Part shown: in pieces, positions 17,156 through 60,311 of the stretch
How positions within the stretch are numbered: position 1 is the stretch's first letter
Layout of the letters: each line of letters opens with the position of its first letter
Assembly (NCBI RefSeq): GCF_007097395.1
Contig: NZ_VKDC01000047.1
Location: 1-64,000 of the forward strand
DNA: 64,000 nt
From: Fulvivirga sp. M361
GTDB taxonomy: Bacteria > Bacteroidota > Bacteroidia > Cytophagales > Cyclobacteriaceae
Direction of reading: 5' to 3'
Program-made: the position numbers and the translations under genes
The notes under the pieces: generated by a model
Seen by the model: only the letters and a program-made list of their open reading frames with translations
What the model was told of the DNA's origin: nothing
Databases searched by the model: none

Positions 17156-20100
17156 ATGAAGTATTTTTTATGGATAGGCTTATGGATCTATCCCTTACTA
17201 TGTTGGTCTCAAGAAGACTATATAATCGCAACTGCTCCGTTTTCTTATAAATCATTGACTTCTGCGAATGCGATTAATTTAACCCGTGGTGATGTGAAAG
17301 GCCCGATCCCTATTGGATTTACCTTTAATTTTTATGGAGAAAACTATACGGAGGTTTACATTGGCAGTGCTGGATTCATCACGTTTTTACCCTACCAGAA
17401 AGATGGATGTTGTGAAGGACAGACCATTCCCAACCCATCAAGTCCTAATGGTTTGATAGCAGGGTATTGGGAGGATTACGTGCCTGAAAGAGGAGGATCT
17501 ATTTCTTATCAAACCTTAGGAAATGCTCCCAACAGGATTTTTGTAGTGCAATATGCTGACATCAAACACAACTATGGACAAAATCCGGAAGTAAGCTTTC
17601 AGATACAATTATTTGAAGGAGCGAATACCATTGAAATACATTGCCTTGATTGTACGTCCGATGGTGATGAACATACACAAGGAATTGAAAGCCAGTCTGG
17701 TAATGAGGCTGCTGTGCGGGATGGAAGAAGCGCTGCTGATTTTAGCGTTGTAAATGGTGCAGACATTTTTGCCAGGTTTAATGTACAATCAAATAGCAAT
17801 GAAATTACACTTTCCTGGCCCGGTTTTCCCCAAGCAACGGGCTATACACTACAACGATTTGATGGCGGCACCCCGGTTGATATTGCAACGCTTTCGGCCA
17901 GTGAAACTTCTTTTACTGATAGCCAGTTATCCCCGGATACTAACTATGATTACCGGTTACAGGTGTCTTTGCCCGGGGAAGAGCTAATAGAATTTAACTT
18001 TACAGCAAGTACAATATCCAGCTTACCTGGTGACTTTAGGGGAGTGGTGAGTAGTCCAATAGAAGTTCAACTTAGCTGGACGGATAATTCTTCATCAGAA
18101 GATGGTTATATCATCGAACGGTCATTGACATCAGGTACCGGATTTGTCGAAATTGCCAGGGTTGGTGCAAATGAAGACGAATATGATGACAGATCACTGA
18201 CCAGCGAAACAACTTATTTTTACCGTATATCAGCCTATAATTCAACCAATACGAGTGAATTCACTGCCGAGGTGATGATCACTACACCGGGTCGGTCGCG
18301 GTATTTTGTAGATGCGGATGCAGAGGGGGGTAACGACGGAAGTTCATGGGAAAATGCCTTTGCAAACCTCTATGATGTTCTGGCCATTGCAGAAGATGGC
18401 GCTGAAGTGTGGGTTGCCGAAGGAATATACAAACCGGAACCAAAACCCAGATCTCGTTCTGCACGCTTTGACATCTCTCAGGCAGGTTTATCCATTTATG
18501 GTGGGTTTGCAGGAGATGAAAGTAGTATTTCAGCACGAAACATACAAGCCCATCCTACCATATTAAGTGGGGATATTGGAGAAATAGGAACCACATCGGA
18601 TAATGTTTATCAGTTAATTAGCAATACTTCAGAAGATAATTCACTTCACCTGAATGGTTTGACAATACGTGATGTCAGAGGGGGTGGGGCAAGGTCAGGC
18701 GGAGGTATGTATAGCCGAGGTCATATTAGGTTGCATAATGTTATTTTTGAAAACAACCAAGCTTCAACAGGTGGCGCTCTTTACGTGAACAGCGGTGTGG
18801 AACTAATCAACTGTACTTTTAAAAATAACAGTACAACCAATACATATGGGCGAGGAGATGGAGGTGGAGCGGTGTACCTGAGGATGCAGCCTGATGAAAA
18901 TGAAGACATTTATATCAAGGATTCAAGATTTATCGATAATGACTCTGATTATTATGGTGGTGCTCTTTATATCGATGTAAAGAGCAATTACACACCAAAG
19001 GTGAGTTTTAATCAGGTTGAAATACGAGGTAACACTGGAGGGTGGCATGTTGGTGGCCTGTACATTGAAGGTAATTGCGAAGTGGATATAACAAGTTCTA
19101 CCATCAGTGAGAATTTGGCTGATCGCCTGGGAGGAGGCGCGTGGATCAGAAATGATGGTAGCCTTAGTATCAGTAATTCTACGATTTCAGGCAATACGAG
19201 TCGCTTTAGTGGTGCGGGATTAGCTTTAAACATAGGTGGTAATGCTTCCTTAAATCATGTCACTGTTTTTAACAATAAAATAACCGGAAATGGTGATTGG
19301 GAAGGTGGAGGAATTTTGAATTATACTCCCTTGACCTTAAAAAACTGTATTGTGGCAGGTAACAAAGGTGTCAATTCAATAAATGACGATATCAGTGGAA
19401 ATAATGACGGGCAGTTTATCAGTTTAGGCAATAATATCATAGGGGATATCGGTTTACAACCCTTTGATGCTAATACTATCGGAGACGTTTATGGGGATAC
19501 GGAAGGAACCAGTGAGGCCAATGAAGGTGCTGTCAGGGTCACCGATGCACCGGTTGACCCGGGATTAGAAGACCTGGCAGAAAATGGTGGGTTTACACTT
19601 ACCCATGCATTGAAAAGTGATAGCCGGGCGCGTAACGGAGGTGCTCCTTCTGATTTGTCAGCTGATCAACGGGGATTACCTCACGTCGGACTTCCTGATA
19701 TTGGGGCTTTTGAGTTTAATGCACCCCCGTTTTTAGCGGACGGTATTCCGGATCAATTTGCTGCACGTTTACAGGATTTTTCTTTCACCATTCCTGAGGG
19801 AGCTTTTAATACCGGAGACGAAGGAGATGTATTTACATATACCGCTGTATTGACGGATGATACCGACCTTCCGGCCTGGCTCACGTTGGATGGGACTACC
19901 GGACAATTTACAGGAGTTCCAACAGAAGATGATGTTACTGTGGTGGTGAAAGTGACCGCTCAAGATAGACAAGATATCACCATTACGGATGAGTTTGAAA
20001 TTAGCGTGATCAATGGTCCTGCCGTGGATAATATCATACCGGATCAGGTAGCCTTTCAACTTCAGGAATTTTCATTTATTGTTCCTGCTAATTCGTTTAG

Positions 20101-20578
20101 TCCCGGAAATGAAGGGGATGTAATTACCTATAGCGCTACACTAAGTGATAATGCTCCTCTACCGGCATGGCTTACATTTGATGCTGATACACGGCAGTTT
20201 TCAGGCACACCTACGCTTACCGATATATCGGCCATAGTAATAAAGGTGGTAGCCACCGATCAACGGGGGTTTTTCATTTCGGATGAATTTGAGATCTCAA
20301 TTAACATTATTACCCGTGTGGATGAGGTGAACAATACTCAGTTGCATCTTTATCCTAATCCAGTGACAGATGTCCTTCATGTTTACCTGCCCGGAGAGGT
20401 TTCCGAAGAAGTACAAGTGAAGGTCTCAACACTCAATGGTCTGCTTTTACTTCACCATACCTTGACCAATCAGACCGGGGAATTGACACTTTCAACCTCC
20501 AGCCTCAAACCAGGCATATATGTAGTAGAACTATCTTCCAAAACCAATATCTACCAGAACAAAATCATCAAAGAGTAA
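17156..20578 (+). CDS. T9SS-exported fibronectin III/right-handed beta-helix/cadherin-like surface protein
   Basis: 1140 residues. Order: signal peptide (1-19, LLCWSQ); N-terminal beta-sandwich (to about 205); two fibronectin III-like domains (near 214 and 304, both with LSW and ER..); right-handed beta-helix starting at YFVDADAEG (about 380); choice-of-anchor Q-like region ending GLPDIGAFEFN (about 825-850); two cadherin-like putative Ig domains (near 861 and 959, each with PAWLTFD or PAWLTLD and a TG..F.G.P turn); T9SS type A sorting domain from YPNPV (about 1064) to KIIKE. It is predicted to be surface-attached. Polysaccharide lyase or binding function is possible for the helix, but I see no catalytic site. 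The lipoprotein gene at 20584 starts 5 bp later. Confidence 0.9.
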   Translation: MKYFLWIGLWIYPLLCWSQEDYIIATAPFSYKSLTSANAINLTRGDVKGPIPIGFTFNFYGENYTEVYIGSAGFITFLPYQKDGCCEGQTIPNPSSPNGLIAGYWEDYVPERGGSISYQTLGNAPNRIFVVQYADIKHNYGQNPEVSFQIQLFEGANTIEIHCLDCTSDGDEHTQGIESQSGNEAAVRDGRSAADFSVVNGADIFARFNVQSNSNEITLSWPGFPQATGYTLQRFDGGTPVDIATLSASETSFTDSQLSPDTNYDYRLQVSLPGEELIEFNFTASTISSLPGDFRGVVSSPIEVQLSWTDNSSSEDGYIIERSLTSGTGFVEIARVGANEDEYDDRSLTSETTYFYRISAYNSTNTSEFTAEVMITTPGRSRYFVDADAEGGNDGSSWENAFANLYDVLAIAEDGAEVWVAEGIYKPEPKPRSRSARFDISQAGLSIYGGFAGDESSISARNIQAHPTILSGDIGEIGTTSDNVYQLISNTSEDNSLHLNGLTIRDVRGGGARSGGGMYSRGHIRLHNVIFENNQASTGGALYVNSGVELINCTFKNNSTTNTYGRGDGGGAVYLRMQPDENEDIYIKDSRFIDNDSDYYGGALYIDVKSNYTPKVSFNQVEIRGNTGGWHVGGLYIEGNCEVDITSSTISENLADRLGGGAWIRNDGSLSISNSTISGNTSRFSGAGLALNIGGNASLNHVTVFNNKITGNGDWEGGGILNYTPLTLKNCIVAGNKGVNSINDDISGNNDGQFISLGNNIIGDIGLQPFDANTIGDVYGDTEGTSEANEGAVRVTDAPVDPGLEDLAENGGFTLTHALKSDSRARNGGAPSDLSADQRGLPHVGLPDIGAFEFNAPPFLADGIPDQFAARLQDFSFTIPEGAFNTGDEGDVFTYTAVLTDDTDLPAWLTLDGTTGQFTGVPTEDDVTVVVKVTAQDRQDITITDEFEISVINGPAVDNIIPDQVAFQLQEFSFIVPANSFSPGNEGDVITYSATLSDNAPLPAWLTFDADTRQFSGTPTLTDISAIVIKVVATDQRGFFISDEFEISINIITRVDEVNNTQLHLYPNPVTDVLHVYLPGEVSEEVQVKVSTLNGLLLLHHTLTNQTGELTLSTSSLKPGIYVVELSSKTNIYQNKIIKE

Positions 20579-20583
20579 AAGAT

Positions 20584-21024
20584 ATGAAAAGTATAAAAAA
20601 ATGGACTTACCTGTTAAATGCAGGTGTATTACTAGCTGTTTTTACATTGATAGGCTGTGGCAAAGATGATGATGGCCCGTCAGCGTCTGAAGTACTCCTT
20701 TCAGAGCTAAGTGCTAAAAAATGGACGGTAGAAAAAGTAATGCGTGACAATACAGAGGTCACTTCCGAATTTTCAGGGTTTACGTTTTCCTTTACTAAAG
20801 AAGGTAAATATGAGACAGAGAATGGTGGGTTAGCCTGGGAAGCAGAAGGCACGCTGATCTTACAAGAGGACTCATCGGATACGTTCACGAGAGATGACGA
20901 TGTAGTGGTGAAGATCACCATTCAGGAAGGAAGTGCCCTGACCATGGCATTCACAATTTCTGAAAATGTGCATAGTGGCCGAACCACAAGTTTGAAAGGG
21001 GTGTACAGTTTCGAGTTGAAGTAA
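20584..21024 (+). CDS. Small lipocalin-like lipoprotein (DUF5004-type)
   Basis: 146 residues. The lipoprotein signal ends at LIGCGKDDDGP (Cys about 25); the Asp-rich run after Cys is typical of surface or outer-membrane sorting in Bacteroidota. The rest is a compact beta-barrel-like pattern (KKWTVEKV, FTFSFTKEGKYET, GVYSFEL). It sits 5 bp after the large beta-helix gene and is probably translated from the same mRNA. A related protein occurs at 32178 in the same relative position to another T9SS beta-helix gene, so the pairing is probably functional. Confidence 0.8.
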   Translation: MKSIKKWTYLLNAGVLLAVFTLIGCGKDDDGPSASEVLLSELSAKKWTVEKVMRDNTEVTSEFSGFTFSFTKEGKYETENGGLAWEAEGTLILQEDSSDTFTRDDDVVVKITIQEGSALTMAFTISENVHSGRTTSLKGVYSFELK

Positions 21025-21195
21025 TCTGTTTATAGAAGCATAGACAGATCAACTTACTTATTTACTGCAAGGTAAATATCGAAATGCCTTTTGATGTCAT
21101 AACGGTCATAAGACGGTATGATCATGGTGTAAGCTTCCTCTAAGCTCCTTACGAAGCTATATTTTTTCAGATTTTATCTAATTAATTATCTAGTT

Positions 21196-23565
21196 ATGAA
21201 GTTTTTTTTATGCGCAGGCCTGTGTTTTTTACACTTCTTTGCTTTATCGCAAACCAGGTATTTTGTTGACGCGGATGCCTCGGGCTCAAACGACGGAAGT
21301 TCCTGGGAAAATGCCTTTCTCAATTTAAGTGATGCTTTGACTGTAATAGCGGAAGGAGATGAGATATGGATGGCCGAGGGGACCTATCTGCCGGGCAATA
21401 GCAGATTTTCCTCTTATAACATAAGAGTTTCTGACTTAAAGATATACGGAGGGTTCAACGGAACTGAAACCGATTTGACTGAACGTGATATAACCGCTAA
21501 TCCTACCATACTCAGCGGAGAGATTGGAGGAAGTGCTGCTTCTGACAATATTCACAGGATTATATTCTTCGGGTTAAGTTCAGGTACCTTAGAAATTAAC
21601 GGATTAACCATAAGAGATGCTTATAATATCTCTCGCGGAGCTTCCTCAAACGGAGGCGGTATCGTTTCATCCGGGCGGCTAAAACTTGAGAATATGACTT
21701 TCTTGAATAACAGGGCGCCGTATGGGGGTGCAGTTTATGTTGGCGGATCGATAGAAGTGGTCAATAGTCGATTTGAGGGGAATATGGCTTCGGGTAGTTC
21801 AGAAACAGGAGGTGGCGCTATAGTTATTTCTTCTGGTAGGGATGGTGGGAAGGTATCCTTTGTAAACACGGAGTTTATTAATAATGGTTGTACAACAGGA
21901 AATGGTGGCGCAATAGCAATTGGAGGCAGCGTTTTCTCTGTTTTTGAAGAAGTGATCCTGGATCAGGTGATGCTGGAAGGTAATTATGTCCGAAAGACGT
22001 CGTATGGTGAAAGAGGAAATGGCGGAGGCATTCACCTGGTGTGTGATTGTAAGGTAGTGATATCTAATACTACTATCAGCAGCAATGAGGCACAAGGTAC
22101 CGGTGGAGGGATGTATTGCTTTCCGCAGGATTCCTTACAGATTATAAACACAACTATTTCCGGCAATTATGCAGAAGAAGCATCAGGTGGTCTGATAACT
22201 ATCGGAGGAAATGTAACTACATTAGATCATGTAACCATTGTTGACAATAGCTCTAAAGGAGGGGTAGGAGGCTGGCTTAATAGCGAAGGTAGCCGTACAC
22301 AATCTGCCGTCAAAACCCAGGTGATTAACTCTATTATTGCAGCGAACAACTCTGAAGAAACCGATTTTCATGATATTTTCGAGGAAGTTGAAGAGGGTAA
22401 AATCACCAGTTTAGGCTATAATATCATAGGAAACATTGGAAATCAACCTTTTGACTCCAATACTATAGGTGATATTTATGGTGATCCAAACGGAATCAGT
22501 GAAGCCAATGAGGGCGCTGACCGGGTAACCACAGGAGCTGTCGATCCACTGATCGAGGCATTGGCAGATAATGGAGGTTTTACGTTAACACATGCATTGC
22601 GTGAAGATAGTCCTGCCCGAAATGGAGGTACCCCTTCCGATCTTTTGAATGACCAAAGAGGTTTGCCTTATGTAGGACGTCCTGATATAGGCGCTTTTGA
22701 GTTCAATGCGGCTCCATCGCTTGAGAATGACATGGCAGACCAACTGGCCATTCGGCATCGTGAATTTTCTTTTACGATACCTGGCACGACATTCAATTCG
22801 GGAGATGAAGGAGATATTTTATCTTTCACCGCCACAGCCGTGGGTGATGCCGTGCTGCCTTCGTGGCTTACGTTTGATCCTCAAAACACCCGGTTTACGG
22901 GGACCCCGCTCAATGAAGATGAAACCATTACGGTGAAAGTAACGGCCTTAGATCAACGATCAGAGGAAATAACAGATGAGTTTAAGATAATAGTGATTGA
23001 TGAGCCAATAGTGGGCAATACTATACCGGACCAGGCAGCTTTCCAGCTTCAGGCTTTTTCATTTACTATCCCAGAAAATACGTTTAGTTACAGCGATGAA
23101 GTGGCAGACAAAGTAAGCTATACCGCTACTCAAAGCGATGGTAGCGCTTTGCCGGCATGGCTTACTTTTGATGAGGACACAAGACAGTTTTCGGGTGCTC
23201 CTGCTGCCAATGACCAATCCATATCGGTTAAGGTAACCGCAACATATCAGGAAGGGTTTTCTATATCTGATGAGTTTGATATCACCATGAATGTGATCAC
23301 CAGCTTGCATGAACAGCATGGTGTGAAGCCATTCTTTTATCCTAACCCGGTAGGGAATGTCATGCATATCCGTTTCCCGGAGAGTACAGGAAATGAAATA
23401 CAGCTTATCATTTCATCCATCAATGGAAAAGCCTTTGTTCACCATACTTTTGTCAATGATCCGGGAGAATTATCACTTTCTATGAATGAGTTAGCTCAAG
23501 GAGTGTATATACTTGAATTCCATACAGAGGTTGATAATTACCAATACAAGATCATTAAACAATAA
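21196..23565 (+). CDS. T9SS-exported right-handed beta-helix/cadherin-like protein
   Basis: 789 residues. It is a shorter paralog of the 17156 product and lacks the N-terminal sandwich and both fibronectin domains: the signal peptide (1-18, FFALSQ) runs directly into the helix start RYFVDADASG (about 22). It then has the NGG..GGG-type helix turns, the anchor-Q-like segment ending GRPDIGAFEFN (about 475-500), two cadherin-like putative Ig domains (near 511 and 610) and a T9SS type A domain from YPNPVG (about 714) to KIIKQ. It follows the lipoprotein gene by 171 bp and may have its own promoter. Confidence 0.9.
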   Translation: MKFFLCAGLCFLHFFALSQTRYFVDADASGSNDGSSWENAFLNLSDALTVIAEGDEIWMAEGTYLPGNSRFSSYNIRVSDLKIYGGFNGTETDLTERDITANPTILSGEIGGSAASDNIHRIIFFGLSSGTLEINGLTIRDAYNISRGASSNGGGIVSSGRLKLENMTFLNNRAPYGGAVYVGGSIEVVNSRFEGNMASGSSETGGGAIVISSGRDGGKVSFVNTEFINNGCTTGNGGAIAIGGSVFSVFEEVILDQVMLEGNYVRKTSYGERGNGGGIHLVCDCKVVISNTTISSNEAQGTGGGMYCFPQDSLQIINTTISGNYAEEASGGLITIGGNVTTLDHVTIVDNSSKGGVGGWLNSEGSRTQSAVKTQVINSIIAANNSEETDFHDIFEEVEEGKITSLGYNIIGNIGNQPFDSNTIGDIYGDPNGISEANEGADRVTTGAVDPLIEALADNGGFTLTHALREDSPARNGGTPSDLLNDQRGLPYVGRPDIGAFEFNAAPSLENDMADQLAIRHREFSFTIPGTTFNSGDEGDILSFTATAVGDAVLPSWLTFDPQNTRFTGTPLNEDETITVKVTALDQRSEEITDEFKIIVIDEPIVGNTIPDQAAFQLQAFSFTIPENTFSYSDEVADKVSYTATQSDGSALPAWLTFDEDTRQFSGAPAANDQSISVKVTATYQEGFSISDEFDITMNVITSLHEQHGVKPFFYPNPVGNVMHIRFPESTGNEIQLIISSINGKAFVHHTFVNDPGELSLSMNELAQGVYILEFHTEVDNYQYKIIKQ

Positions 23566-44218: not shown

Positions 44219-45121
44219 ATGAAACTGTTAAAAAAATACGGTCTTGTGTTGATGTTGGCACCCATAGTTTTGGCTTGTAATCAAAAAGAGATGAAAACGC
44301 TCTCCAGTGAGAATAAGGAGCTGGATTCAGCAAATCACCAGTTGGAAAGTGAGTTGGAAACCTATATGCGGACGTTCAATGAAATAGAAAGTAACCTGGC
44401 TGAAATAAAAGAACGGGAAAGCGCCATAGCGCTAAAAACACAGGATAATGTAGAATACGAAGGTGATGCTAAACAGGTGATAGTGGACGATATTAAGGCC
44501 ATTAATGCATTACTGGTCGAGAATCACGAAAAAATGGCACAACTTCAGTCTACGCTCAATACTACCAATGGTGAATTTAAAAAGATGGTAGGGCGCTTGA
44601 ACCAAAAGGTCAAAGAAAAAGACCAGGAGGTGGTTCTTTTGAAAGAAGAGCTTACAGCGCTTAACCTTGAAAAGGAAAGCCTTACCGAAAGTGTAGCAGA
44701 ATTGAACGGTTCGGTGGAAACGCTGGAGGGTAGGACTATGGTTCAGGACTCTGTTATTTCTGCTCAAACACAAATGATACAAGATCAATACAATGGTCTT
44801 ACTACGGCTTTTGTAGCGATAGGCACCTATAAAGACCTGGAAGAAAAGCAGGTATTGCAGAAGGAAGGGGGCTTGCTGGGATTAGGAAGGACTGAAAAAC
44901 TGAATGAGGATCCTGATTTAGCTGCTTTTACTCGTATTAATATTGATAATGAGTTGCAAATCGATGTACAAGGTAATAAGGCAGAACTTGTCACTAATCA
45001 TCCGAAAGGGTCTTACAAGTTTGAGATGAATGAGACAGAAGACATTGAAAAGCTGGTAATTTTAGACAAAGATGATTTTTGGAGATCATCAAAAATGCTG
45101 GTGGTGATGGTGAATGAGTAA
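44219..45121 (+). CDS. Coiled-coil lipoprotein of unknown function
   Basis: 300 residues. The lipoprotein signal ends APIVLACNQKE (Cys20). Residues about 25-190 are continuous heptad-type coiled coil (long runs of E, L, K, N, Q without Pro). The C-terminal ~95 residues form a small beta-rich domain (AFVAIGTYKDLEEKQVL, GGLLGLGRTEKL, DLAAFTRINI, LVTNHPKGSYKFE). This layout of anchor, stalk and head is seen in Bacteroidota envelope proteins of unknown role. It precedes the exported LRR gene run but has its own terminator. Confidence 0.75.
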   Translation: MKLLKKYGLVLMLAPIVLACNQKEMKTLSSENKELDSANHQLESELETYMRTFNEIESNLAEIKERESAIALKTQDNVEYEGDAKQVIVDDIKAINALLVENHEKMAQLQSTLNTTNGEFKKMVGRLNQKVKEKDQEVVLLKEELTALNLEKESLTESVAELNGSVETLEGRTMVQDSVISAQTQMIQDQYNGLTTAFVAIGTYKDLEEKQVLQKEGGLLGLGRTEKLNEDPDLAAFTRINIDNELQIDVQGNKAELVTNHPKGSYKFEMNETEDIEKLVILDKDDFWRSSKMLVVMVNE

Positions 45122-45144: not shown

Positions 45145-45181
45145 ATACCGGCCCGTATGAACGGGTCGGTATATTTTTTTA
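45145..45181 (+). terminator. Terminator after coiled-coil lipoprotein
   Basis: A 12-bp stem ATACCGGCCCGT/ACGGGTCGGTAT (one G-T pair), 4-nt loop, then eight T. It separates this gene from the LRR operon. Confidence 0.9.
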
Positions 45182-45472: not shown

Positions 45473-45949
45473 ATGAAAAACATACCTTGGAATTATTTAG
45501 TATTCATTTTTTTATTTGGAGTAGCGGTTGGCTGCAAGAGTAAAAAAAAGGTAGCCGATATTACCACACCTCAGGAATCTGCCCCATCGGAGGTTGTGGA
45601 AAAAACACCTGAGAAGGAATACCCTGATCATGATGAAAACATTAAAACGGTTGAAAAAGAAGTAACCACTGAGCGTAAGTTAACGGAATATTTAACCGCT
45701 ATTTCCACTGCCCCTAGTACTACCTCTGCCAACAAAACCATTGGTGAAACTCTTAATATGTTTTCGTCACCCGATGCACTGGTATTGATCATCATCAGCG
45801 AGTCGGATGGTATTAAAGACTATGACCGGCCTACTACCATCCAAAAGTATCTGAACTATCTCAAAGATCAGAAAAAAGAGATGGACGAGGTGCACAGTAT
45901 TAAAAAAGATGCTAATGGTAAAATAACCGAGCTTGAACTAAAGAAATAA
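45473..45949 (+). CDS. Lipoprotein, first gene of LRR operon
   Basis: 158 residues from the ATG at 45473; a GTG at 45446 would add nine residues before the signal and is less likely. The lipoprotein signal ends FLFGVAVGCKSKKK (Cys about 22). A low-complexity charged linker (to about 75) follows, then a compact domain (TEYLTAISTAPSTTSANKTI, MFSSPDALVLIIISESDGIKDYDRPTTIQKYLNYLKD). That domain recalls small alpha/beta folds, but I assign no family. The next gene starts 19 bp after it. Confidence 0.75.
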   Translation: MKNIPWNYLVFIFLFGVAVGCKSKKKVADITTPQESAPSEVVEKTPEKEYPDHDENIKTVEKEVTTERKLTEYLTAISTAPSTTSANKTIGETLNMFSSPDALVLIIISESDGIKDYDRPTTIQKYLNYLKDQKKEMDEVHSIKKDANGKITELELKK

Positions 45950-45968
45950 CGCACTAAATAACACTATC

Positions 45969-46538
45969 ATGAGAGTATTGAAATACGGTATTATGCTGAC
46001 GTTTTTTGCCCTGACATCTGCGGCCATGGCACAAGAGATCAGTCCCGAAAGAAAACAAGCTATAGATTCACTGGCGTTGGAGAAAGTTCGCGACCTGAGT
46101 AAATACATCAGCATCATAGGCGATAAAGAAACACCATTCTCAGAAGCCCAACGCGTGATGGATCGTGCAGAAGAGTTGTTTGCACCTGACAGTGAGATGG
46201 GTGTGTCATCTCTTTCAAGAGACGAAATAAATTACTACAAAGTCCGTGAGTATTTTGAACGGCTAATAGCTTTGAATTATGATAAAGTAAATATCAAGTG
46301 GTATGATATTCACTACATCAGCGACCTGGAAAGACAGCCGGATGGCAAGTACGTCGGGGTAGTGACTGTTTACCAACGCTTTGAGGGATCATCGGATGAT
46401 GAGCTCACTTACAAGGACACCACCAAAAAGGACATTACCATTTATGTGGAGAGAAAAAAGACACAGATACAAGGTCGAACCATTGCTTTTTGGGATGTAT
46501 TGTTAGGCGATATTCGTGTAACGGAGACATCCGCATAA
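45969..46538 (+). CDS. Exported protein of unknown function, LRR operon
   Basis: 189 residues with a signal peptide (1-21, SAAMAQ). The mature part alternates helices and strands: LRR-operon-style N-terminal helices, then YYKVREYFERLIALNYDKVNIKWYDIHY, then two to four strands with YVGVVTVYQRFEG and KDITIYVERKKT. The pattern resembles the N-terminal domain of the 806-residue LRR protein in the same operon (LF or IF near 60, then paired strands). The shared fold may be NTF2-like, which is inference. It lies 19 bp after and 4 bp before its neighbours. Confidence 0.75.
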   Translation: MRVLKYGIMLTFFALTSAAMAQEISPERKQAIDSLALEKVRDLSKYISIIGDKETPFSEAQRVMDRAEELFAPDSEMGVSSLSRDEINYYKVREYFERLIALNYDKVNIKWYDIHYISDLERQPDGKYVGVVTVYQRFEGSSDDELTYKDTTKKDITIYVERKKTQIQGRTIAFWDVLLGDIRVTETSA

Positions 46539-46542
46539 CCAG

Positions 46543-47370
46543 ATGCAGAAATTCATCGTATTCGTTTTCCTTCTGGGTACTTTCAGTTTCCGGGTCAGTG
46601 CACAGCTAGTCACTGACCTGGAAGATGAGTCAAAGTTATATGCACAAACCAAGCAGGTAGGGCAGTTTTTCAGAAGGTTCAACGGGGAAGAAGATGAAAA
46701 CGGAGACAGGTACTATCCGAAAGATAAAAAGTACAGAAGCCAGAAGCTGAGGAAATCTTATCTGGGCCTTTTATTTGACAGGGAAAATACCTCTATCAAA
46801 AATGAGCTGAAGGTGGCTTTTGCTAAAGAAATGCTGGATAAAGATCAGCCCCGGTACCTGGATTTTCATGGAGGTCAATGGTATGCAGAGGTGAATGCGT
46901 TATTCAGGAATAGTGGGAAAAAAGAGATTTTTACCCTATTTATGAAATTGGAAAAAGACCGCCTTGGGTCAAAATGGGTCATTGAAGGGGTAGCTGGGGA
47001 GCGTTATGACAGGCATTTTGAAAAAGCTGAAAAGGGAAGTAAGCAATTTCTACACCCCATGAGTCATGAGTTGTCCTTCATGAATTTGCGTAAGGCCTTT
47101 GATGAGCCTGATAGTATTTCAGAGTATACCACATCCACATTTGAGCCGGATTATCTGACCTTGTTTATTTATGAATTGGAACTGGGCAAAATGAAGTTTG
47201 AGACTGTACAACATGTGAAATTTCATTTCTTTCAATTGGATAACTGGTATTTTGAACTGTCGAATTTTAATCGCCCGGGATACAATACCGGCTGGTTGAT
47301 ATCAAATTTGGTACAAGTGAATGAAGAGACCTCTGAAAGGCTAAAAAAACACCTGTTTTATGAGCAATAA
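46543..47370 (+). CDS. Exported protein of unknown function, LRR operon
   Basis: 275 residues with a signal peptide (1-20, SFRVSAQ). An N-terminal helix pair (VGQFFRRFNGEED, YRSQKLRKSYLGLLFD), then two similar alpha+beta halves: WYAEVNALFRNSGKKEIFTLFMKLEKD with KWVIEGV, and YLTLFIYELELGKMKFETVQHVKFHFFQLDNWYFEL. This could be an internal duplication of an NTF2-like fold. It begins 4 bp after the previous gene, and its end overlaps the LRR gene start by 11 bp, so translation is probably coupled. Confidence 0.75.
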   Translation: MQKFIVFVFLLGTFSFRVSAQLVTDLEDESKLYAQTKQVGQFFRRFNGEEDENGDRYYPKDKKYRSQKLRKSYLGLLFDRENTSIKNELKVAFAKEMLDKDQPRYLDFHGGQWYAEVNALFRNSGKKEIFTLFMKLEKDRLGSKWVIEGVAGERYDRHFEKAEKGSKQFLHPMSHELSFMNLRKAFDEPDSISEYTTSTFEPDYLTLFIYELELGKMKFETVQHVKFHFFQLDNWYFELSNFNRPGYNTGWLISNLVQVNEETSERLKKHLFYEQ

Positions 47371-49780
47371 GATCATATCCTTTTGTTGTTGGCTAAGTCT
47401 CATTCCATGGGTGGCATTTGCTCAACCCACTGAAGATGAAATAGCTACTTATGAAGGGGAGGCCAGGGAGATGGTGGGTTTTCTGGGATACATGATGAAT
47501 ACCATGGGAAACCCGAATACTTCTGCGCGTGATAAAGAAGTAATTGTTTCGCAAAGTTTCAAAAAAATATTCAGAGATGGTGAAGTTCAGATCCAGGATG
47601 ATCTGGATGAAGCGCGTAATGTTATCACCAATAAAGACGTTACGGCTTACTTAAAGGACATCGACTTTTTTTTCAGATCGGCCAATTTTGAAATTAACGT
47701 AGAGGACATTCAAAATGAAACGACCACGGAAGGAGGTTTGTTTTTCAAGATAACTGCCAGCAGGAGATTATCTGCCATTAGCATCAATGGAGATTCCGTT
47801 AATAACACGCAACCCCGTTTCATTGAGATCAACGTAGATCCTGAAAATAAGGAATTAAAAATAGTGAGCATGTATACACGTGCTTATGACAGGACCAAAT
47901 ATCTGACCACCTGGTGGAAGGAGCTTTCATACGAGTGGCGCTCTCTTTTTAAAAAGGAGTTAAACCTGATATCAGATAGTCTGACGCCTTCACAAATCAA
48001 TAAAGTTGTGGGTATAGCATCCCTGGATCTTTCGGGGAACAGATACATAAACTCCATAGCGCCATTAAGTGAGTTGACAGATTTAAAAAACCTCAACCTT
48101 CAGGGCACTAATATTAAAGACCTTTCTCCGTTACGAAACCTGAACCACCTTACGCACTTGAATGCATCAGGTACCCGGGTAACATTGCTGGAACCTTTGA
48201 AATATGCCGGCCGTTTGCGTGAACTTAACCTGAAAAATACTCAAATAGATACTTTAAGGGCATTGGCCAGGTTAAGCCAACTGGAATATCTGGATATTAG
48301 CCGTAGTGCTGTAAATTCCTTGCAAGACCTCTCCGAACTGACCAAATTGAACCGATTGGATATATCCGGTACGAGGGTGAATGACCTGACCGGTGTGGGA
48401 CGTATGGCGGATTTGAAAGAGTTCAGAATAAATTCAACTACCGTGGCGGAGTTGGGCCCATTGGCAGGCTTGCAACAACTTACTGCACTGCATATGGATT
48501 CCACCCTCGTAAACGATCTAACCCCTTTGAAAGAGTCGAAGGCGCTGGAGATCCTGAGCATCAATAGTTGCAACGTTACCAGCCTTGATCCTCTGAATGG
48601 ACTTGAGGCATTACGAAAGATCTATTGTGACCGTACCGGTATTAATCATCAAATGGCAAAGAGCTTCATGGATGCCCATAATGGAGTGATTGTGGTGTAT
48701 GATTCTGAAGACCTGTTGACATGGTGGTCTGCCCTTCCTGAAGTTTGGCAATCTATATTCAATGCGTCCACAGGCATAAACACTTCTCCCTCAAAAGAGG
48801 AGCTGGCTAAAGTGGTGTTTATAGACTCTTTGAACATATCCGGACGAAAAGTATTTTCCCTTGATCCGATTATTAACCTGGACAAATTACGTTACCTCAA
48901 TGCCAGTAATACCTCCGTATCACGCCTTGAACCTCTTACACAACTGAGTGAACTGACTTACCTGGACCTGAGTAGTACGGATGTTGAAAGCGTAGATGAC
49001 CTGGCACGTCTTGATGGCTTGGAAACCTTGATCATTCAGGATACTTATGTAGATAATTTACAGTCACTGCATGCTTTGGCTAAACTGACATTCCTGGATT
49101 TGAACGATACCCAAATTTCAGAAGAGGATATCATTGATTACCTGGAGACTCATTCGAAAAGCCTTGTGCTGTATAAAACAGAACATCTCACAGGGTGGTG
49201 GCAAGGATTGAACAGTTTGTGGAAAAGTGTACTTGGTACGGCTATTAGTGCTATTGACTCACCCTCGGCGATTGAACTTCATCAGGCAGCGCAAGTGAAA
49301 AGCCTTGAATTTGAAAATGTAGCGGTACAGGACCTTAGTCCTTTGCAAGAGCTTATGCTTCTGAAAGACCTGGCCTTGTCAGGTACACGAGTGACGTCCC
49401 TGTCCCCTCTAAACACGCTGGATAAATTAAGGCGATTAAAAGTAAATAAGACCCCGATAGTGGACCTAAGTCCAATTGCTGATCTTAAATTAACTGATCT
49501 GGATGTATCAAATACAGGGGTAGTAACCCTGGAACCATTACAGGATATGATCAGTCTCAATGCTATTAATTGTTCGGGTACTCCTTTAAAACGTCTGAGA
49601 GGGCTTGAAAACCTGTCAGATCTCCAGTCGTTGGATTGTTCAAATACTGCAGTTAAAAAGCTGGATGAGGTAAAATACTTAAACCTTAAGGCCCTTTCCT
49701 GCTTTAATACTAAGATCTCAGATAGCCGGTTAGATAGTTACAGGGAGGAAAACCCTGATTGTAAAATCACTTTTTACTGA
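47360..49780 (+). CDS. Exported leucine-rich-repeat protein with triplicated W-W..W module
   Basis: 806 residues: signal peptide (1-22, PWVAFAQ), an N-terminal domain (about 25-175) like the 45969 product, then three blocks. Each starts with a W-W-x2-L-x3-W motif (TTWWKELSYEW near 185, LTWWSALPEVW near 455, GWWQGLNSLW near 612) and a short helical segment. Each block continues with SDS22-like LRRs of about 21-22 residues (pattern L..L..L.LS.T.V..L.PL). It has no T9SS domain and no anchor, so it should be periplasmic or loosely attached. LRR arrays bind proteins, and the partners may be the three preceding gene products. The stop codon abuts the stop of the convergent gene at 49781. Confidence 0.85.
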   Translation: MSNKIISFCCWLSLIPWVAFAQPTEDEIATYEGEAREMVGFLGYMMNTMGNPNTSARDKEVIVSQSFKKIFRDGEVQIQDDLDEARNVITNKDVTAYLKDIDFFFRSANFEINVEDIQNETTTEGGLFFKITASRRLSAISINGDSVNNTQPRFIEINVDPENKELKIVSMYTRAYDRTKYLTTWWKELSYEWRSLFKKELNLISDSLTPSQINKVVGIASLDLSGNRYINSIAPLSELTDLKNLNLQGTNIKDLSPLRNLNHLTHLNASGTRVTLLEPLKYAGRLRELNLKNTQIDTLRALARLSQLEYLDISRSAVNSLQDLSELTKLNRLDISGTRVNDLTGVGRMADLKEFRINSTTVAELGPLAGLQQLTALHMDSTLVNDLTPLKESKALEILSINSCNVTSLDPLNGLEALRKIYCDRTGINHQMAKSFMDAHNGVIVVYDSEDLLTWWSALPEVWQSIFNASTGINTSPSKEELAKVVFIDSLNISGRKVFSLDPIINLDKLRYLNASNTSVSRLEPLTQLSELTYLDLSSTDVESVDDLARLDGLETLIIQDTYVDNLQSLHALAKLTFLDLNDTQISEEDIIDYLETHSKSLVLYKTEHLTGWWQGLNSLWKSVLGTAISAIDSPSAIELHQAAQVKSLEFENVAVQDLSPLQELMLLKDLALSGTRVTSLSPLNTLDKLRRLKVNKTPIVDLSPIADLKLTDLDVSNTGVVTLEPLQDMISLNAINCSGTPLKRLRGLENLSDLQSLDCSNTAVKKLDEVKYLNLKALSCFNTKISDSRLDSYREENPDCKITFY

Positions 49781-50926
49781 TCATGATGGCAGTATCAATC
49801 GTTGTGGCAATTCTTCCATTTTTTCGCACCCCAGTTGTTCCATCACTTGCTGAAGTTGCATTTTCAATAACTCCATAGTATGGTTTCCGCCTTCATTACC
49901 TAATGCACCCACACCATACATAAATGGACGGCCCAGAAAAACAAACTTGGCGCCGCTGGCAATACAACGTGCGATGTCAGGCCCTGATCTGACACCACCA
50001 TCCATCATGACTGTCATTTTATCTTCGAATGATTTTGCCAGGTGCCCCAAAGGCTTAATCGTAGACTGACCTGCATCTAACTGTCTGCCCCCGTGGTTAG
50101 ACACAATTATACCGTCCGCACCAAGTAAAAGCGCTTTTTGTGCATCCATTTCATTTACCACTCCCTTAATTACCAGTTTGCCTTTCCAACGGTCTCTTAA
50201 CCCTTTGATTTTTTCTTCATTCAGGCGCCCGTTGAATGTTTTATTCATAAACTGTCCCAGCTGGCTCATATTCATATTTTTGGGCATATAAGGAAGTAAG
50301 GTAGTAAACTCTGGTTTACCATGATACAGCGTTTTTAAAGCCCATATTGGTTTGGCCAATATTTGAAGCACATTACGTAAAGACATGCTGGGTGGCATTG
50401 AAAGTCCGTTTCTAATGTCTTTGTAACGTATTCCAAAGCTCGGTGTATCTGCCAGGGCCACTAATACATCACACCCGGCATCGCTCGCTCTTTTTAGTAA
50501 TTTATCTCTTAAGCTGTCTTCAGCCGGATGATACAGCTGAAACCAGAATTTCCCTTCTGTTAGGTCACTGATCCGTTCGATACTTGCGGTAGTGACGGTG
50601 CTTAAAATAAAAGGAACGTTGTATGCTAATGCGGCTTTAGCCAGTATTTCCGGAGAATTAGGCCAGATCAGCCCCTGTAAACCAATGGGAGAGATGCCAA
50701 AAGGTGCATTATATTCATGACCAAATAGCTCTGTGCTCAAGTCAGCCTTGTCAAAGTCTTTTAAGTATTGAGGCATGAGCTCTACCTGCTGAATATCAGA
50801 TTTATTTCTGGCCAGATTAATTTCTTCATTGGCTCCTCCGGTAAGGTAATCAAAGGCGAATGTTGGAATATTTCTGCTTGCCTTCTTTTTTAAGTCTTGT
50901 ATGGATGGATAGTTCGGGTTGAACAT
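49781..50926 (-). CDS. FMN-dependent alpha-hydroxy-acid dehydrogenase (LldD/glycolate-oxidase family)
   Basis: 381 residues, the family's normal length. TIM barrel with ISPIGLQGLIWP near 79, the active-site His in IIVSNHGGRQLD (about 278) and the FMN phosphate loop DGGVRSGPDIARCIASGAKFVFLGRP. It oxidises a 2-hydroxy acid (lactate, glycolate or mandelate) to the keto acid. L-lactate is most likely for Bacteroidota, while glycolate would feed the malate synthase at 10736 (inference). It has no signal peptide. It converges with the LRR gene with no spacer at all. Confidence 0.93.
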   Translation of the reverse strand: MFNPNYPSIQDLKKKASRNIPTFAFDYLTGGANEEINLARNKSDIQQVELMPQYLKDFDKADLSTELFGHEYNAPFGISPIGLQGLIWPNSPEILAKAALAYNVPFILSTVTTASIERISDLTEGKFWFQLYHPAEDSLRDKLLKRASDAGCDVLVALADTPSFGIRYKDIRNGLSMPPSMSLRNVLQILAKPIWALKTLYHGKPEFTTLLPYMPKNMNMSQLGQFMNKTFNGRLNEEKIKGLRDRWKGKLVIKGVVNEMDAQKALLLGADGIIVSNHGGRQLDAGQSTIKPLGHLAKSFEDKMTVMMDGGVRSGPDIARCIASGAKFVFLGRPFMYGVGALGNEGGNHTMELLKMQLQQVMEQLGCEKMEELPQRLILPS

Positions 50927-55940: not shown

Positions 55941-58900
55941 TTATTCTATGGTCAAATAGTTGAGGTCAAGGACCAGCTGATTGTATGTATTCAGTTGATC
56001 CAGGTAGGATAGCTTTATTCGTTGTACGTTTTCCATACTTTGTATGAATGTGATAAAGCCCGTTTCTCCCAATGTATATTTTTTACGGGCCATTTCAGCG
56101 ATTTCTTCTGCCATTGACAGTCCTTCATCTTCGTAGAATTTTAGTTTTGTGAGACTGTTTTGAATTTCATTCGCTCCTCTTTTGTACTCGGATGACAGCC
56201 GTAGCTGATAGAGGTCAGACAGGTTTTGATACATAGCGTATTCAACATTTTTAGCCTTGATCCTGGCTTTCTGTGTATGGTAGAATAAAGGGAAACTAAC
56301 CCCTAGCTGGTAGCCGAAAAGATTTTGTGCATTTTCGTTAATACCTCTGCCCATAAAGTACTCCAGGTTAATGTCAGGCAGTAGCTTATTTCGTTCCAGC
56401 TTTACTTCCGACTTTCTGGCCACTAAAATGGCTTGCTGTAACCTGAGACCTGCATGGTTGATCAAAGCGCTGCTCACGTTCTGGCGTGTAAAAGGAAGTT
56501 TTTTTACAAATGCGAAAGGAAGGTCCGGTGGTTTATCTAATCGTAGCAGTTGCGTAAATTCTAACTCGGCCGAAGTATACTGTGTGGTGACATCATTTTT
56601 TTGCTGGAGGAGACTTACACGATGTGCTTTGGCGTTCAGTACTTCAAGGTAATCGGATTCTCCCAACTCAAACTTTCGATTAACCGCTTGAAGTGAGACC
56701 TTAAATAAGCTGTCAAGCTGCTTCAAAACGGTTATTTTCTGTTGGAGAAACTGAAGGCGGTAAAAAAGTTTTGAAACTTGCCGTGTGATCCTGACCTTTT
56801 CCAGTTCATAAGATTCTTCACTCACGGATATTCTTTGTGAGGCTAGCTGTCGCTGTGTACTCATTACGGAAGGGAAAGGTATGGACTGTGATATCCCATA
56901 CACGTTAAGAGGAAACCCGTTTTCAGCAATGTTGTTTTCGTCGTAAGCATGGTAAAAAGATGTTTTTCCCAGGTCAAATGCTGTGCGCTTTAAGAGTTGA
57001 TTTCGGTCGATATCCAGCTCCAGGGCTTTCAATTTCAGGTTGTTTTCCAGGGCTACAGTAATGGACTCTGTCAAACTCAGCTCAATTTTGGTTTGAGCAC
57101 TACTAACGGAGGGGATCAAAAAAGCAGCTATCAACAAGAGGAGTGCTATTGACTTTGGTGAAATATTGGAGGGGACTTTTTTAGTTTTGCTCACCCCGAA
57201 TAACATGTATAGAACGGGAAGTATTACCAGTGTGAGAATCGTGGAAGTAAATAATCCGCCAATAACTACTGTGGCCAAAGGTCTTTGAACTTCAGCTCCG
57301 GCAGAGGTAGACACGGCCATGGGAAGAAAACCCAGTGCAGCAGCCGAAGCTGTTAATAATACAGGTCTCAAACGTTGTTTCGCGCCCATCAATATCCTTT
57401 CTCTGATATTTGTGATGCCTTCGCCTTCTAATTGAGTGAAAAACTCTATCAATACAATTCCATTGAGTACGGCAATGCCAAACAGCGCTATGAAGCCTAC
57501 ACCGGCAGATATGCTGAAAGGTAGCCCACGTACCCATAACGCCAGGATACCCCCGATGGCCGCCAGTGGAATGGCGGAATACACCAACAAAGCCCGTCGG
57601 AACGACCTTAAGGCGAAACGCAGCATAATAAAAATCATAGCCAAAGCTGCAGGAACAGCCAATTGTAATCTTTTTATAGCATTTTGAAGGTTTTCGAATT
57701 GCCCGCCATATGTAAGAGAATATCCATAAGGTAGTTTAAATTTATCTTTGACAATTTCCTGAATCTCTTCCACAAGAGAGCTAACATCTCGATTTCTTAC
57801 ATTGATGCCTATTACTATTCGTCGTTTGGTATTGTCACGAGATATTTTGGCGGGCCCTTTTTTATAGTCGATAGTGGCAACTTCCCGCAAAGGGATCTGG
57901 CTACCGTTGGGAAGGTCCACATACAGGTCTTTCATATTTTCGATGTCTGTCCGAAAGCGCTCCTGGAATCTGACTACCAGGTCAAAACGTTTTTCGCCCT
58001 CATAAATGGCTCCGGCTGTTTCACCCCCAAATGCTAACCGTACCATTCGGTTGAGGTCTGAGGTATTGAGTCCCAGCTGGGCCAGCCGTTTCCGGTCGTA
58101 TTCTACCGAGATCTGTGGCAGGTCATCCGTCTTTTCTACTATGATATCTGCGGCGCCCTCTACATTATGGATGAGTTGCTTAAGGGTATTGGCATACCTG
58201 AAAAGCGTGTCAAGGTCTTCGCCATAAATTTTGATGGCCAGATCAGAGCGTACTCCTGTGATCAACTCGTTAAAACGCATTTCAATAGGCTGTGTAAACT
58301 CAAAATCCATACCTGGGATAACAGACATAGCAGATTTCATTTTTCCCGCCAATTCGGCTTTGGAAGAAGCGCTCCTCCATTCACCTTTTGGTTTTAGTTT
58401 AATGATCACATCAGTTTCTTCCATTGACATGGGGTCTGTAGGTACCTCAGCGGCGCCTATGCGGGACACGACCTGGTCTACTTCGGGGAAACTGTCCATC
58501 AGAATGTTTTCTAATTGGGTCATTAAGTCAATGGTTTTGGAGAGGGAGGTGCCTGTTTTTAATACAGGTTGTACTACATAATCCCCTTCATCCAAAGTGG
58601 GGATAAACTCTCCTCCCATGCGTGAAAATATGAACAGGCTTACGGTAAGAAAGATGACTGCCGAACCTAATACGAGCTTATGACGCTTTAAAGCCCATTG
58701 GATAACGGGTTTATATATTTTGTATAAAAACGCCATGATCCGGTCTGACACCTTGTCCAATATGCCTTTCTTTCGATGGTCCGATCTGCCACCGATCAAT
58801 GAACTTACCATCGGCACATAGGTCAGGCAAAGTAACATGGCGCCCAGGAGTGTAAAACCAAAGGAGAGCGCCATAGGGCCAAACATTTTTCCTTCTATTC

Positions 58901-60311
58901 CTGATAAGGCAAGAATGGGTATGAATACAATAAGAATAATGATCTGACCGAAGATGGCCGGCTCCATTACCTTACTGGCGCTTTCAATGGTGATATTATC
59001 TCGGATGGACTGGGTGATTTTTGTCTCATGGATCAATTGACCCTGATTTTTTGAGAACTGGAAGAGGATAAACTCAATAATGATCACGGCGCCATCAATA
59101 ATAATGCCGAAATCAATGGCACCCAGACTCATTAGGTTAGCGGATATGCCGAATAAATTCATCAAAGAGATCCCGAATAGCAGAGAAAGCGGAATAACAG
59201 AGGCAACGATCAATCCCGATCTGAAATTCCCCAGCAGTAACACCAACACGAAGATGACGATGAGAGCGCCTAAGAGCAGGTTTTCAGCTACCGTGTGAGT
59301 GGTTTTGTCAATTAATTCAGTACGTTCGAGAAACGGATTGATCGTGATCCCTTCAGGAAGCACCTTTTGAATTTCGTCTACCCGGGCTTTGACATTTTCA
59401 ATGACCTGTTTGGAATTCGCATTTTTTAGCATCATGATTTGTCCCATTACCTTTTCTCCCTGCCCGTTCCCGGTAATAGCTCCAAATCGTGTGGCATGGC
59501 CATACGTTACTTTGGCAACGTCCCTGATCAGTAGCGGTACGTTTCCTGTTGTTTTAACTACGATTTGCTCTATTTCTTCCAGTGATTTTATCAGACCCTC
59601 ACCACGTACAAAATAAGTTTGCTCGTATTTTTCAATGTATCCACCTCCGGTAACGTCATTATTTTTTTCCAGGGCATTGAAGATTTCGGCTATGGAGATG
59701 TTCAATGCTTTAAGTTTTTGCGGGTTAAGCGATACCTCATATTGTTTTAAATATCCTCCCCAGGTATTGACTTCCACTACCCCGGGTATTCCTGAAAGCT
59801 GACGTTTTACGACCCAGTCCTGGATGGTCCGAAGATCCATAACGGAGTATTGGGATTGATAAGCGGGTTCTACCTCCAGCACATACTGATAGATTTCGCC
59901 TAGTCCCGTGGATATCGGCCCCATTTCAGGGCTGCCGAAGTGAGGGGGGATTTTTTCCCGGGCGGATTTTAGTTTTTCAGCAATGAGTTGACGAGGCAGG
60001 TAAGTGCCCATATCATCTTCAAATACAACAGTTACTACGGATAAGCCGAACTTCGAAATGGACCTGATCTCCAACACCCCCGGCAAATTGGCCATTTCCA
60101 GTTCTACAGGGTAACTAATGAACTTTTCAACTTCTTCCGTAGCCAGATTCCGTGATGTGGTGATGATCTGTACCTGGTTATTTGTGATATCAGGAACGGC
60201 GCCAATGGGGATCTGGAAAATGGAATAGCCCCCCCAGGTTACCAGGCCAATGATCATCAGGGTCACTAATAATTTATTTTTGACACTAAAGGCAATAATT
60301 GAGTGAATCAT
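55941..60311 (-). CDS. czcA: Heavy-metal efflux RND pump (CzcA/CusA type) fused to a TolC-like outer-membrane factor
   Basis: 1456 residues. The first ~1035 are an HME-RND pump: 12 transmembrane helices, pore-domain motif GGEFIPTLDEGDYV near 570 and TM4 proton/metal residues in DFGIIIDGAVIIIE near 402. The two Asp and the Glu match CzcA-type (divalent) pumps rather than monovalent-type ones. From about 1050 a new hydrophobic segment (IALLLLIAAFLIPSVSSAQ) looks like an internal signal peptide and begins a CusC/TolC-like domain (LSLTESITVALENNLKLKALE) with long helices. So pump and outer-membrane factor are one reading frame, as known for some Bacteroidota. Signal-peptidase cleavage may separate them (inference). 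Confidence 0.95.
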   Translation of the reverse strand: MIHSIIAFSVKNKLLVTLMIIGLVTWGGYSIFQIPIGAVPDITNNQVQIITTSRNLATEEVEKFISYPVELEMANLPGVLEIRSISKFGLSVVTVVFEDDMGTYLPRQLIAEKLKSAREKIPPHFGSPEMGPISTGLGEIYQYVLEVEPAYQSQYSVMDLRTIQDWVVKRQLSGIPGVVEVNTWGGYLKQYEVSLNPQKLKALNISIAEIFNALEKNNDVTGGGYIEKYEQTYFVRGEGLIKSLEEIEQIVVKTTGNVPLLIRDVAKVTYGHATRFGAITGNGQGEKVMGQIMMLKNANSKQVIENVKARVDEIQKVLPEGITINPFLERTELIDKTTHTVAENLLLGALIVIFVLVLLLGNFRSGLIVASVIPLSLLFGISLMNLFGISANLMSLGAIDFGIIIDGAVIIIEFILFQFSKNQGQLIHETKITQSIRDNITIESASKVMEPAIFGQIIILIVFIPILALSGIEGKMFGPMALSFGFTLLGAMLLCLTYVPMVSSLIGGRSDHRKKGILDKVSDRIMAFLYKIYKPVIQWALKRHKLVLGSAVIFLTVSLFIFSRMGGEFIPTLDEGDYVVQPVLKTGTSLSKTIDLMTQLENILMDSFPEVDQVVSRIGAAEVPTDPMSMEETDVIIKLKPKGEWRSASSKAELAGKMKSAMSVIPGMDFEFTQPIEMRFNELITGVRSDLAIKIYGEDLDTLFRYANTLKQLIHNVEGAADIIVEKTDDLPQISVEYDRKRLAQLGLNTSDLNRMVRLAFGGETAGAIYEGEKRFDLVVRFQERFRTDIENMKDLYVDLPNGSQIPLREVATIDYKKGPAKISRDNTKRRIVIGINVRNRDVSSLVEEIQEIVKDKFKLPYGYSLTYGGQFENLQNAIKRLQLAVPAALAMIFIMLRFALRSFRRALLVYSAIPLAAIGGILALWVRGLPFSISAGVGFIALFGIAVLNGIVLIEFFTQLEGEGITNIRERILMGAKQRLRPVLLTASAAALGFLPMAVSTSAGAEVQRPLATVVIGGLFTSTILTLVILPVLYMLFGVSKTKKVPSNISPKSIALLLLIAAFLIPSVSSAQTKIELSLTESITVALENNLKLKALELDIDRNQLLKRTAFDLGKTSFYHAYDENNIAENGFPLNVYGISQSIPFPSVMSTQRQLASQRISVSEESYELEKVRITRQVSKLFYRLQFLQQKITVLKQLDSLFKVSLQAVNRKFELGESDYLEVLNAKAHRVSLLQQKNDVTTQYTSAELEFTQLLRLDKPPDLPFAFVKKLPFTRQNVSSALINHAGLRLQQAILVARKSEVKLERNKLLPDINLEYFMGRGINENAQNLFGYQLGVSFPLFYHTQKARIKAKNVEYAMYQNLSDLYQLRLSSEYKRGANEIQNSLTKLKFYEDEGLSMAEEIAEMARKKYTLGETGFITFIQSMENVQRIKLSYLDQLNTYNQLVLDLNYLTIE

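Follow-up and report, generated by a model that had tools for sequence, protein, structure and literature searches.

Known systems and the locus under study

Extracytoplasmic domains of the NTF2-like fold are represented by the families DUF3828, DUF3887, and DUF4878, which have been proposed (Eberhardt et al. 2013, PMC3924330) to be non-catalytic ligand binders regulating the domains linked to them, e.g., Ser/Thr kinases. In the type IX secretion system (T9SS), PorP-like proteins bind type B substrates (PMC9143113). The unit described here is formed by four consecutive genes, designated A, B, C, and D, located in a stretch of 64,000 nucleotides of Fulvivirga sp. M361 (assembly GCF_007097395.1, contig NZ_VKDC01000047.1, positions 1 to 64,000), which in its whole length is called the window below. 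It codes for a lipoprotein (A), two exported proteins (B and C), and a larger exported protein (D) with a predicted NTF2-like head followed by leucine-rich repeats (LRRs). A-B-C-D is a conserved, tightly packed, co-occurring, real unit, common within one order of Bacteroidota and rare outside it. It has no Pfam or NCBIfam family outside the LRRs and is unstudied as far as the searches reach; its conservation, with presence in about half of 98 related genomes and a median identity of 84% for B over 79 loci, points to a definite function in the outer membrane or the periplasm.

Conservation of gene order and co-occurrence

A scan of genome contigs with a profile of B yielded at least 533 relatives, from which 80 named loci were kept, 79 with a called B gene; they come from genera such as Fulvivirga, Marivirga, Chryseolinea, Belliella, Cyclobacterium, Echinicola, and Roseivirga. 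The genes are contiguous, on a single strand and in the order A-B-C-D, in 72 of the 79 named loci, a strongly positive outcome of the search for conserved gene order across Bacteroidota that had been called for in the original prediction, a reading of the window from its sequence only. Eight of the 80 loci lie outside this strict count (L078, L094, L097, L108, L120, L123, L137, and L144); L094, L120, and probably L137 reach contig ends, and the other five may reflect conflicts in the picking of open reading frames (ORFs) or broken genes. An earlier set of 40 loci (L038–L077), from genomes partly overlapping those of the later set, shows the A-B-C-D order in 30, the same order with an extra gene in L069, and divergent or dispersed genes in the other nine. 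The extra gene of L069 (positions 11003–11380, minus strand) lies between A and B, codes for a B-like protein of 125 amino acids, and is likely a duplication within the operon. C and D overlap in 26 of the 32 loci of this earlier set, the window included, when the ORFs are taken from their first start. The flanking genes vary with the lineage. Belliella-type loci have alaS, gatB, and a thioredoxin-like gene, those of Fulvivirga have a PBP1a-like gene and a coiled-coil lipoprotein gene, and a phosphoesterase or amylase gene is found elsewhere.

Among the 98 relatives, strong matches to B (E < 1e-20) and matches to C (E ≤ 1e-3) were found in the identical 52 genomes; A is present in 46, every one of which also has B, C, and D, and D in 51. 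The presence table was drawn up with E < 1e-20 for A, B, and D and with the listed matches (E ≤ 1e-3) for C, and leaves aside six weak matches to A (G022, G043, G044, G050, G060, and G093) and two to B (G025 and G060). The 98 genomes are mutually related, and the co-occurrence is stated as counts, without a probability. In wider samples, B was found in 155 of 390 genomes from the order and in 11 of 395 from the phylum, three of the latter outside the order, and C in 7 of the 395.

Scattering of the genes in other genomes, which the original prediction had named as evidence against itself, occurs in one genus (L064–L066, L178–L180, and L200–L202), where the unit is split among three contigs; all four genes are nonetheless kept in three of three genomes, which argues for a joint function. 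In L064, L065, and L066, B-C sits between lgt-like and menA-like genes (named by eye), with A and D on two other contigs. In a fourth genome, G535, B and A are on separate contigs.

The NTF2-like head of D, its relative B, and the B-related tail of A

The head of D is predicted to have a fold of the NTF2-like superfamily, a cone of two helices and a sheet. Its AlphaFold2 model (residues 1–205; predicted local distance difference test, pLDDT, 90) has the topology helix-helix-strand-strand-helix-four strands. In the VIA fold search it aligned with 3rob at Z 14.7 (root-mean-square deviation 2.1 over 124 residues), and 738 of the 1000 chains listed had Z ≥ 8; the best Foldseek match had E 4.8e-5. 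The sequence set of the model comprised 53 of 60 sequences and the window, with L097 and L144 omitted as odd and five dropped for brevity.

The resemblance of the N-terminal domain of D to B, put forward in the original prediction, was borne out by profile–profile alignment (hhalign probability 96%, E 1e-9, 164 columns), and a hidden Markov model of the D head matches B proteins down to about 3e-10. By this homology B would share the NTF2-like fold. A also aligned with B in hhalign (probability 93% for whole A and 92% for its tail), a relation missed in the original account of fold-related members; an NTF2-like fold of the A tail would thus rest on a link to B over a short segment of ca. 95 amino acids.

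B is the most constant part of the unit and the LRR region the most variable, as follows from the median identities to the window over 78–79 loci: 84% for B, 51% for the A tail, 49% for C, 46% for the D head, and 33% for the D LRRs. Against the sequences of the Protein Data Bank (PDB), B gave nothing credible (best E 0.066). A match of B to the RnlA toxin, 30 residues long and present in 3 of 26 members (best 2.6e-4; E 0.0014 in the window B, under the cut-off), was judged to be due to chance. Outside the order, a distant B-like protein is coded for in L173 and L174 (E 4e-16, and about 1e-13 in another search), followed by a gene for an exported protein of 309–311 amino acids in the position of C; this neighbour was considered as C-like and dropped, its similarity to C being undetectable (E 0.12).

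The replaceable arm of D

The arm of D is interchangeable (LRR, tetratricopeptide repeat (TPR), or others) on a constant head. In the window, WW-x2-L motifs occur at residues 185 (just before the solenoid span), 455, and 613, and three such motifs are found in 79 of 110 scored D proteins (about 103 distinct). Divergent genomes have the D head joined to TPRs (e.g., L072, L073, and L181) or to shorter tails, with no LRR-like units by motif count. In the loci read, the A lipoprotein is seen alongside D of the LRR type, and the genus with dispersed genes, in which A is present, has D with 10–11 LRR-like units. The D proteins fetched from G041, G044, G082, G085, and G097 (one D of G082 not included) are all of the non-LRR type, and these genomes have no strong match to A. 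The original title stressed the LRR protein; LRRs are indeed present in D, but they are its replaceable part; across the variants, B and the NTF2-like head are retained more than the arm is.

The probable location of A and the separate position of C

The signal for lipoprotein export to the surface of Bacteroidetes requires acidic residues at positions +2 to +6, a rule tested in Capnocytophaga with motifs of Capnocytophaga, Bacteroides, and Flavobacterium (PMC5080379). None of 108 scored A proteins has such an acidic signal (at least two D/E at +2 to +6), and in 63 of them the cysteine is followed by KSKKK; since the signal is absent, A probably faces the periplasm. Of the 110 A proteins, 97 are distinct (some genomes are represented twice), and two off-pattern ones, both basic by eye, were left out of the scoring. 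Matches of A to Rz-like spanins (E 0.014) were rejected as weak.

C is the outlier of the set. Its model is of the alpha/beta type (pLDDT 82), obtained from 45 of 50 non-redundant locus sequences and the window, with five dropped for over-long ORF starts. The VIA search gave no convincing PDB fold match (best Z 3.8, no row at Z 5), an outcome that is no evidence of a new fold; NTF2-like entries are among the weak rows, at Z 2.9–3.7. The two small soluble proteins B and C had been thought to look fold-related, and this is rejected at the level of sequence: profile–profile probability for C and B is 2.8% over the whole length (3% or less for C with A and with B), and the halves of C, taken as a negative control, gave under 1% each with the A tail, B, and the D head. 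Whole C and the D head reached 27% (E 7e-4), partly across the signal peptides. No internal repeat was found in C (probability 0.5%), and its comparison with PDB sequences gave nothing credible (best E 0.036).

Divergent loci

Two divergent loci combine genes of the unit with genes for a Ser/Thr kinase and for proteins of T9SS type. The order in L072, on one strand, is CHU_C protein (cut at the contig end), PorP/SprF, kinase, B, C, and D of the TPR type; in L181, likewise on one strand, it is CHU_C protein (2334 amino acids), PorP/SprF, kinase, PP2C, and D of the TPR type. Both kinases have a transmembrane segment (by eye) and an A-like domain at the C-terminal end. The tail of the L072 kinase scored 20.5 bits; of 1000 shuffles, 979 were scored, and the highest of these reached 9.1 bits. 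That of L181, in genome G044, has E 4.6e-5 among the ORFs of six loci and 3.5e-4 in the whole genome; L181 was chosen for its A-like tail, the adjoining D match having been obtained in another search. When both kinase tails were included in the profile, all the ORFs found were of lipoprotein length; they occurred in 45 of the 194 genomes sampled from the order, and G041 and G044 may lie outside this sample.

In L200, of the genus with dispersed genes, D is followed by an ORF for a SpoIIE-type phosphatase and by a second ORF, whose start resembles PorP/SprF (by eye) and whose end resembles OmpA; L201 resembles L200 by length and end sequence. The arrangement B, OmpA-like, an optional further gene, and D, without C, was found in L158, L160, L162, and L172, and no OmpA match in the 80 named loci (single-sequence searches, E ≤ 1e-5). 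In L075, L158, L162, L168, and L203, D is followed by a large protein that matches T9SS tail families, that of L162 alone passing the Pfam cut-off. In the earlier set of loci, L076 has a PP2C-like ORF at a distance of five ORFs from B, and L039 a weak CHU_C match close to B.

Proposed function and alternatives

We put it at about an even chance that A, B, C, and D make up a single complex in the periplasm, probably on the inner side of the outer membrane; both the complex and the client of D are what we infer from the data above. NTF2-like domains often associate with one another, the CaMKII hub being an example; in A, B, and D, the parts of this type would pack together around B, the most conserved of the proteins, with C as a partner. 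Lipoprotein A would tether the assembly, and the solenoid of D would bind a client, either a protein or a cell-wall component. With less confidence, the assembly may work as a non-catalytic sensor of, or adaptor for, a ligand or client, a role suggested by two divergent genomes in which a transmembrane Ser/Thr kinase has an A-like domain as its tail and is encoded next to PorP/SprF, CHU_C, and TPR-type D genes. The logic of an NTF2-like head with a solenoid, together with the kinase-borne A domain, makes the sensor or adaptor role directly testable. In a wider and rather improbable extension, A-D would be one branch of an undescribed class of envelope signalling in this order, in which a modular NTF2-based periplasmic scaffold has its sensor on a transmembrane Ser/Thr kinase or on a lipoprotein, and an exchangeable solenoid (LRR or TPR), borne on a constant NTF2-like head, reads the state of a client, e.g., PorP/SprF–adhesin assembly or the cell wall.

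Several observations weigh against a single complex of this kind. C has neither a convincing fold match nor a sequence link to A, B, or D, and it is not a constant member beyond the close relatives: in G463 a B-type gene was found and no match to C, and B-type genes have no adjacent C in L158–L160, L162, L166, L167, L169, L170, and L172. The related tail of A spans only ca. 95 amino acids and has no direct profile link to D, and the tail of the L072 kinase (in G041) was not found as a match to A at E ≤ 1e-3 in the whole-genome search. Co-occurrence in the 98 genomes is imperfect as well. A looser cut-off puts B in 54 of them, two with weak matches (G025 and G060); D stands in G044 with no match to B or C; and a match to D is missing from G069 and G076, which have both B and C, the C of G076 being near a contig end. 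Finally, no match to a kinase, PP2C, PorP/SprF, or CHU_C was found in the 80 named loci (single-sequence searches, E ≤ 1e-5), and GldM of the T9SS is present in 95 of the 98 relatives, so that its presence gives no specific link to that system.

Two specific versions lead among the alternatives, both resting on divergent relatives and neither supported at the locus of the window. In one of them, which we regard as unlikely, A-B-C-D would be an accessory of the T9SS or of gliding, namely a periplasmic adaptor that assembles or retains outer-membrane proteins of the PorP/SprF type and type B surface adhesins. PorP/SprF and CHU_C genes in line with kinase-B-C-D in L072 and with kinase-PP2C-D in L181 fit such a role, as do the second ORF after D in L200, the T9SS tail matches after D in five loci, and the ability of PorP-like proteins to bind type B substrates (PMC9143113). 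It is opposed by the lack of PorP/SprF and CHU_C matches in the 80 named loci and by the presence pattern (GldM in 95 of 98 genomes versus C in 52), by which a T9SS link was tried and found uninformative. The loci of G041 and G044 have a backbone in common and may reflect a single event. The other version, to which we give a similarly small chance, makes A-B-C-D a sensor of envelope stress or of a ligand, with Ser/Thr phosphorylation as the pathway to which it signals; sensing would be the task of the A domain, wired elsewhere directly to a kinase and borne here on a lipoprotein. The two kinases with an A-like tail, the PP2C gene between kinase and D in L181, and the phosphatase ORF after D in L200, with its counterpart in L201, speak for it, and ligand sensing has been proposed for kinase-linked extracytoplasmic NTF2-like domains (PMC3924330). 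The absence of kinase and PP2C matches from the 80 named loci speaks against it, as does L202, from the third genome of the genus of L200, in which different genes adjoin D. Only two such kinases are known from the loci, and the 194 genomes of the order add none.

The least probable of the alternatives, and one to which we give little credence, is that the four proteins are exported for a lineage-specific metabolic or uptake function and share an operon without forming a complex. The want of interface evidence and of sequence similarity between C and the other three would agree with this. However, B and C match in their presence, A and D are retained after dispersal, the A tail, B, and the D head have a shared ancestry, and none of A-D passes a curated cut-off (Pfam, NCBIfam) for an enzyme or uptake family. 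A periplasmic complex of the four proteins is the reading we prefer.

Organization of the locus in the window

The features of the locus are collected in Table 1. The four-gene layout on the plus strand, with spacings of 19 (A/B), 4 (B/C), and -11 bp (C/D), agrees exactly with the coordinates originally given. Export or lipid anchoring of all the products, claimed at the same time, is likewise upheld: A has a lipobox cysteine in the context ...GVAVGC-KSKKK, and the N-termini of B, C, and D, read by eye, are signal-peptide-like with an A-Q junction.

Table 1. Positions of the A-B-C-D genes, the parts of D, and the upstream hairpin in the window
Feature	Position	Strand	Description
Gene A	45473..45949	+	Lipoprotein, 158 aa; lipobox Cys21 then KSKKK; C-terminal ~95 aa related to B
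Gene B	45969..46538	+	Exported, 189 aa; probably NTF2-like, by homology to the D head
Gene C	46543..47370	+	Exported, 275 aa; alpha/beta model
Gene D	47360..49780	+	Exported, 806 aa; predicted NTF2-like head and LRR solenoid; 11-bp overlap with C
NTF2-like head of D (predicted)	47426..47974	+	Residues 23–205; aligned core 25–174
LRR solenoid of D	47975..49777	+	Three segments, divided by WW-x2-L motifs
Terminator-like hairpin with T run	45145..45172	+	12-bp stem; between the upstream lipoprotein gene and A-B-C-D

The upstream gene for a coiled-coil lipoprotein (44219–45121) stops 5' of the hairpin, which sets it apart from the unit, in keeping with the earlier claim that it has a terminator of its own. 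Terminator-like sites number eight in all, versus 6.4 expected by chance, and the stem of this hairpin is the longest of the eight (12 pairs, 7 of them G-C, the next having 10 pairs with 5 G-C). The coiled-coil lipoprotein passes the NCBIfam model NF052320 of Cbp1-family collagen-binding adhesins (184 bits versus a cut-off of 90) and is also coded for near A-B-C-D in L040, L042–L045, and L047, of the same genus. On the other side, an lldD-like gene (named by eye) is convergent with D, their ends abutting at 49778–49781 with zero gap to the stop codon of D.

Elsewhere in the window, an ORF of 1456 amino acids at 55941–60311 looks, by eye, like a fusion of an RND heavy-metal pump with a TolC-like protein, and three large exported proteins with stretches resembling polymorphic repeats are coded for close together at 14448–23565, two of them with T9SS-like tails (by eye).

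Comparison with known systems

Above the cut-offs, the LRRs of D are the one part of A-D that Pfam recognises, and none of the four proteins is recognised by NCBIfam. No match to A-D was found among the PADLOC models of anti-phage defence at E ≤ 0.01, nor, in Pfam and NCBIfam, to Por_Secre_tail or CHU_C (the C-terminal sorting domain of the T9SS) or to families of T9SS core or PorP/SprF components. DUF3828, DUF3887, and DUF4878 gave no Pfam match at E ≤ 0.01 in 26 B, 17 D-head, 27 C, and 12 A-tail sequences. The original statement that the set corresponds to no characterised system thus stands for Pfam, NCBIfam, and PADLOC, outside the LRRs, and for PDB sequences as regards B and C. No account of the unit was found in the open-access literature, subscription papers and preprints being outside the search.

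The fold of the D head is that of the CaMKII hub and of NTF2/p15, which appear in the fold-search lists with an identity of about 7–14%, a common fold that shows no common function; in CaMKII and NTF2/p15 this fold is used for assembly, in the former next to a kinase. Internalin models of NCBIfam match the LRR region of D, but far below the curated cut-offs (139.1 versus 1275 bits, and 128 versus 1600), and D has an NTF2-like head instead. PorE-PorP-PG1035 and SprF-SprB, the PorP/SprF-linked systems of type B T9SS adhesins (PMC9143113), offer a comparable combination of an outer-membrane protein with a surface protein and a partner in the periplasm. D-type genes adjoin PorP/SprF in some genomes, whereas the unit of the window contains neither PorP/SprF nor a protein with the C-terminal sorting domain. 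The families DUF3828, DUF3887, and DUF4878 (PMC3924330) are alike in their NTF2-like fold, in being secreted or lipid-anchored, and in being linked in some cases with protein kinases or TPRs, and differ in that the LRR arm, the C protein, and the fixed four-gene unit belong to A-B-C-D. The NTF2 fold and the idea of extracytoplasmic NTF2-like sensors are known already; the four-gene unit, the swapping of solenoids on an NTF2-like head, and the correspondence between A and the kinase tails appear to be new.

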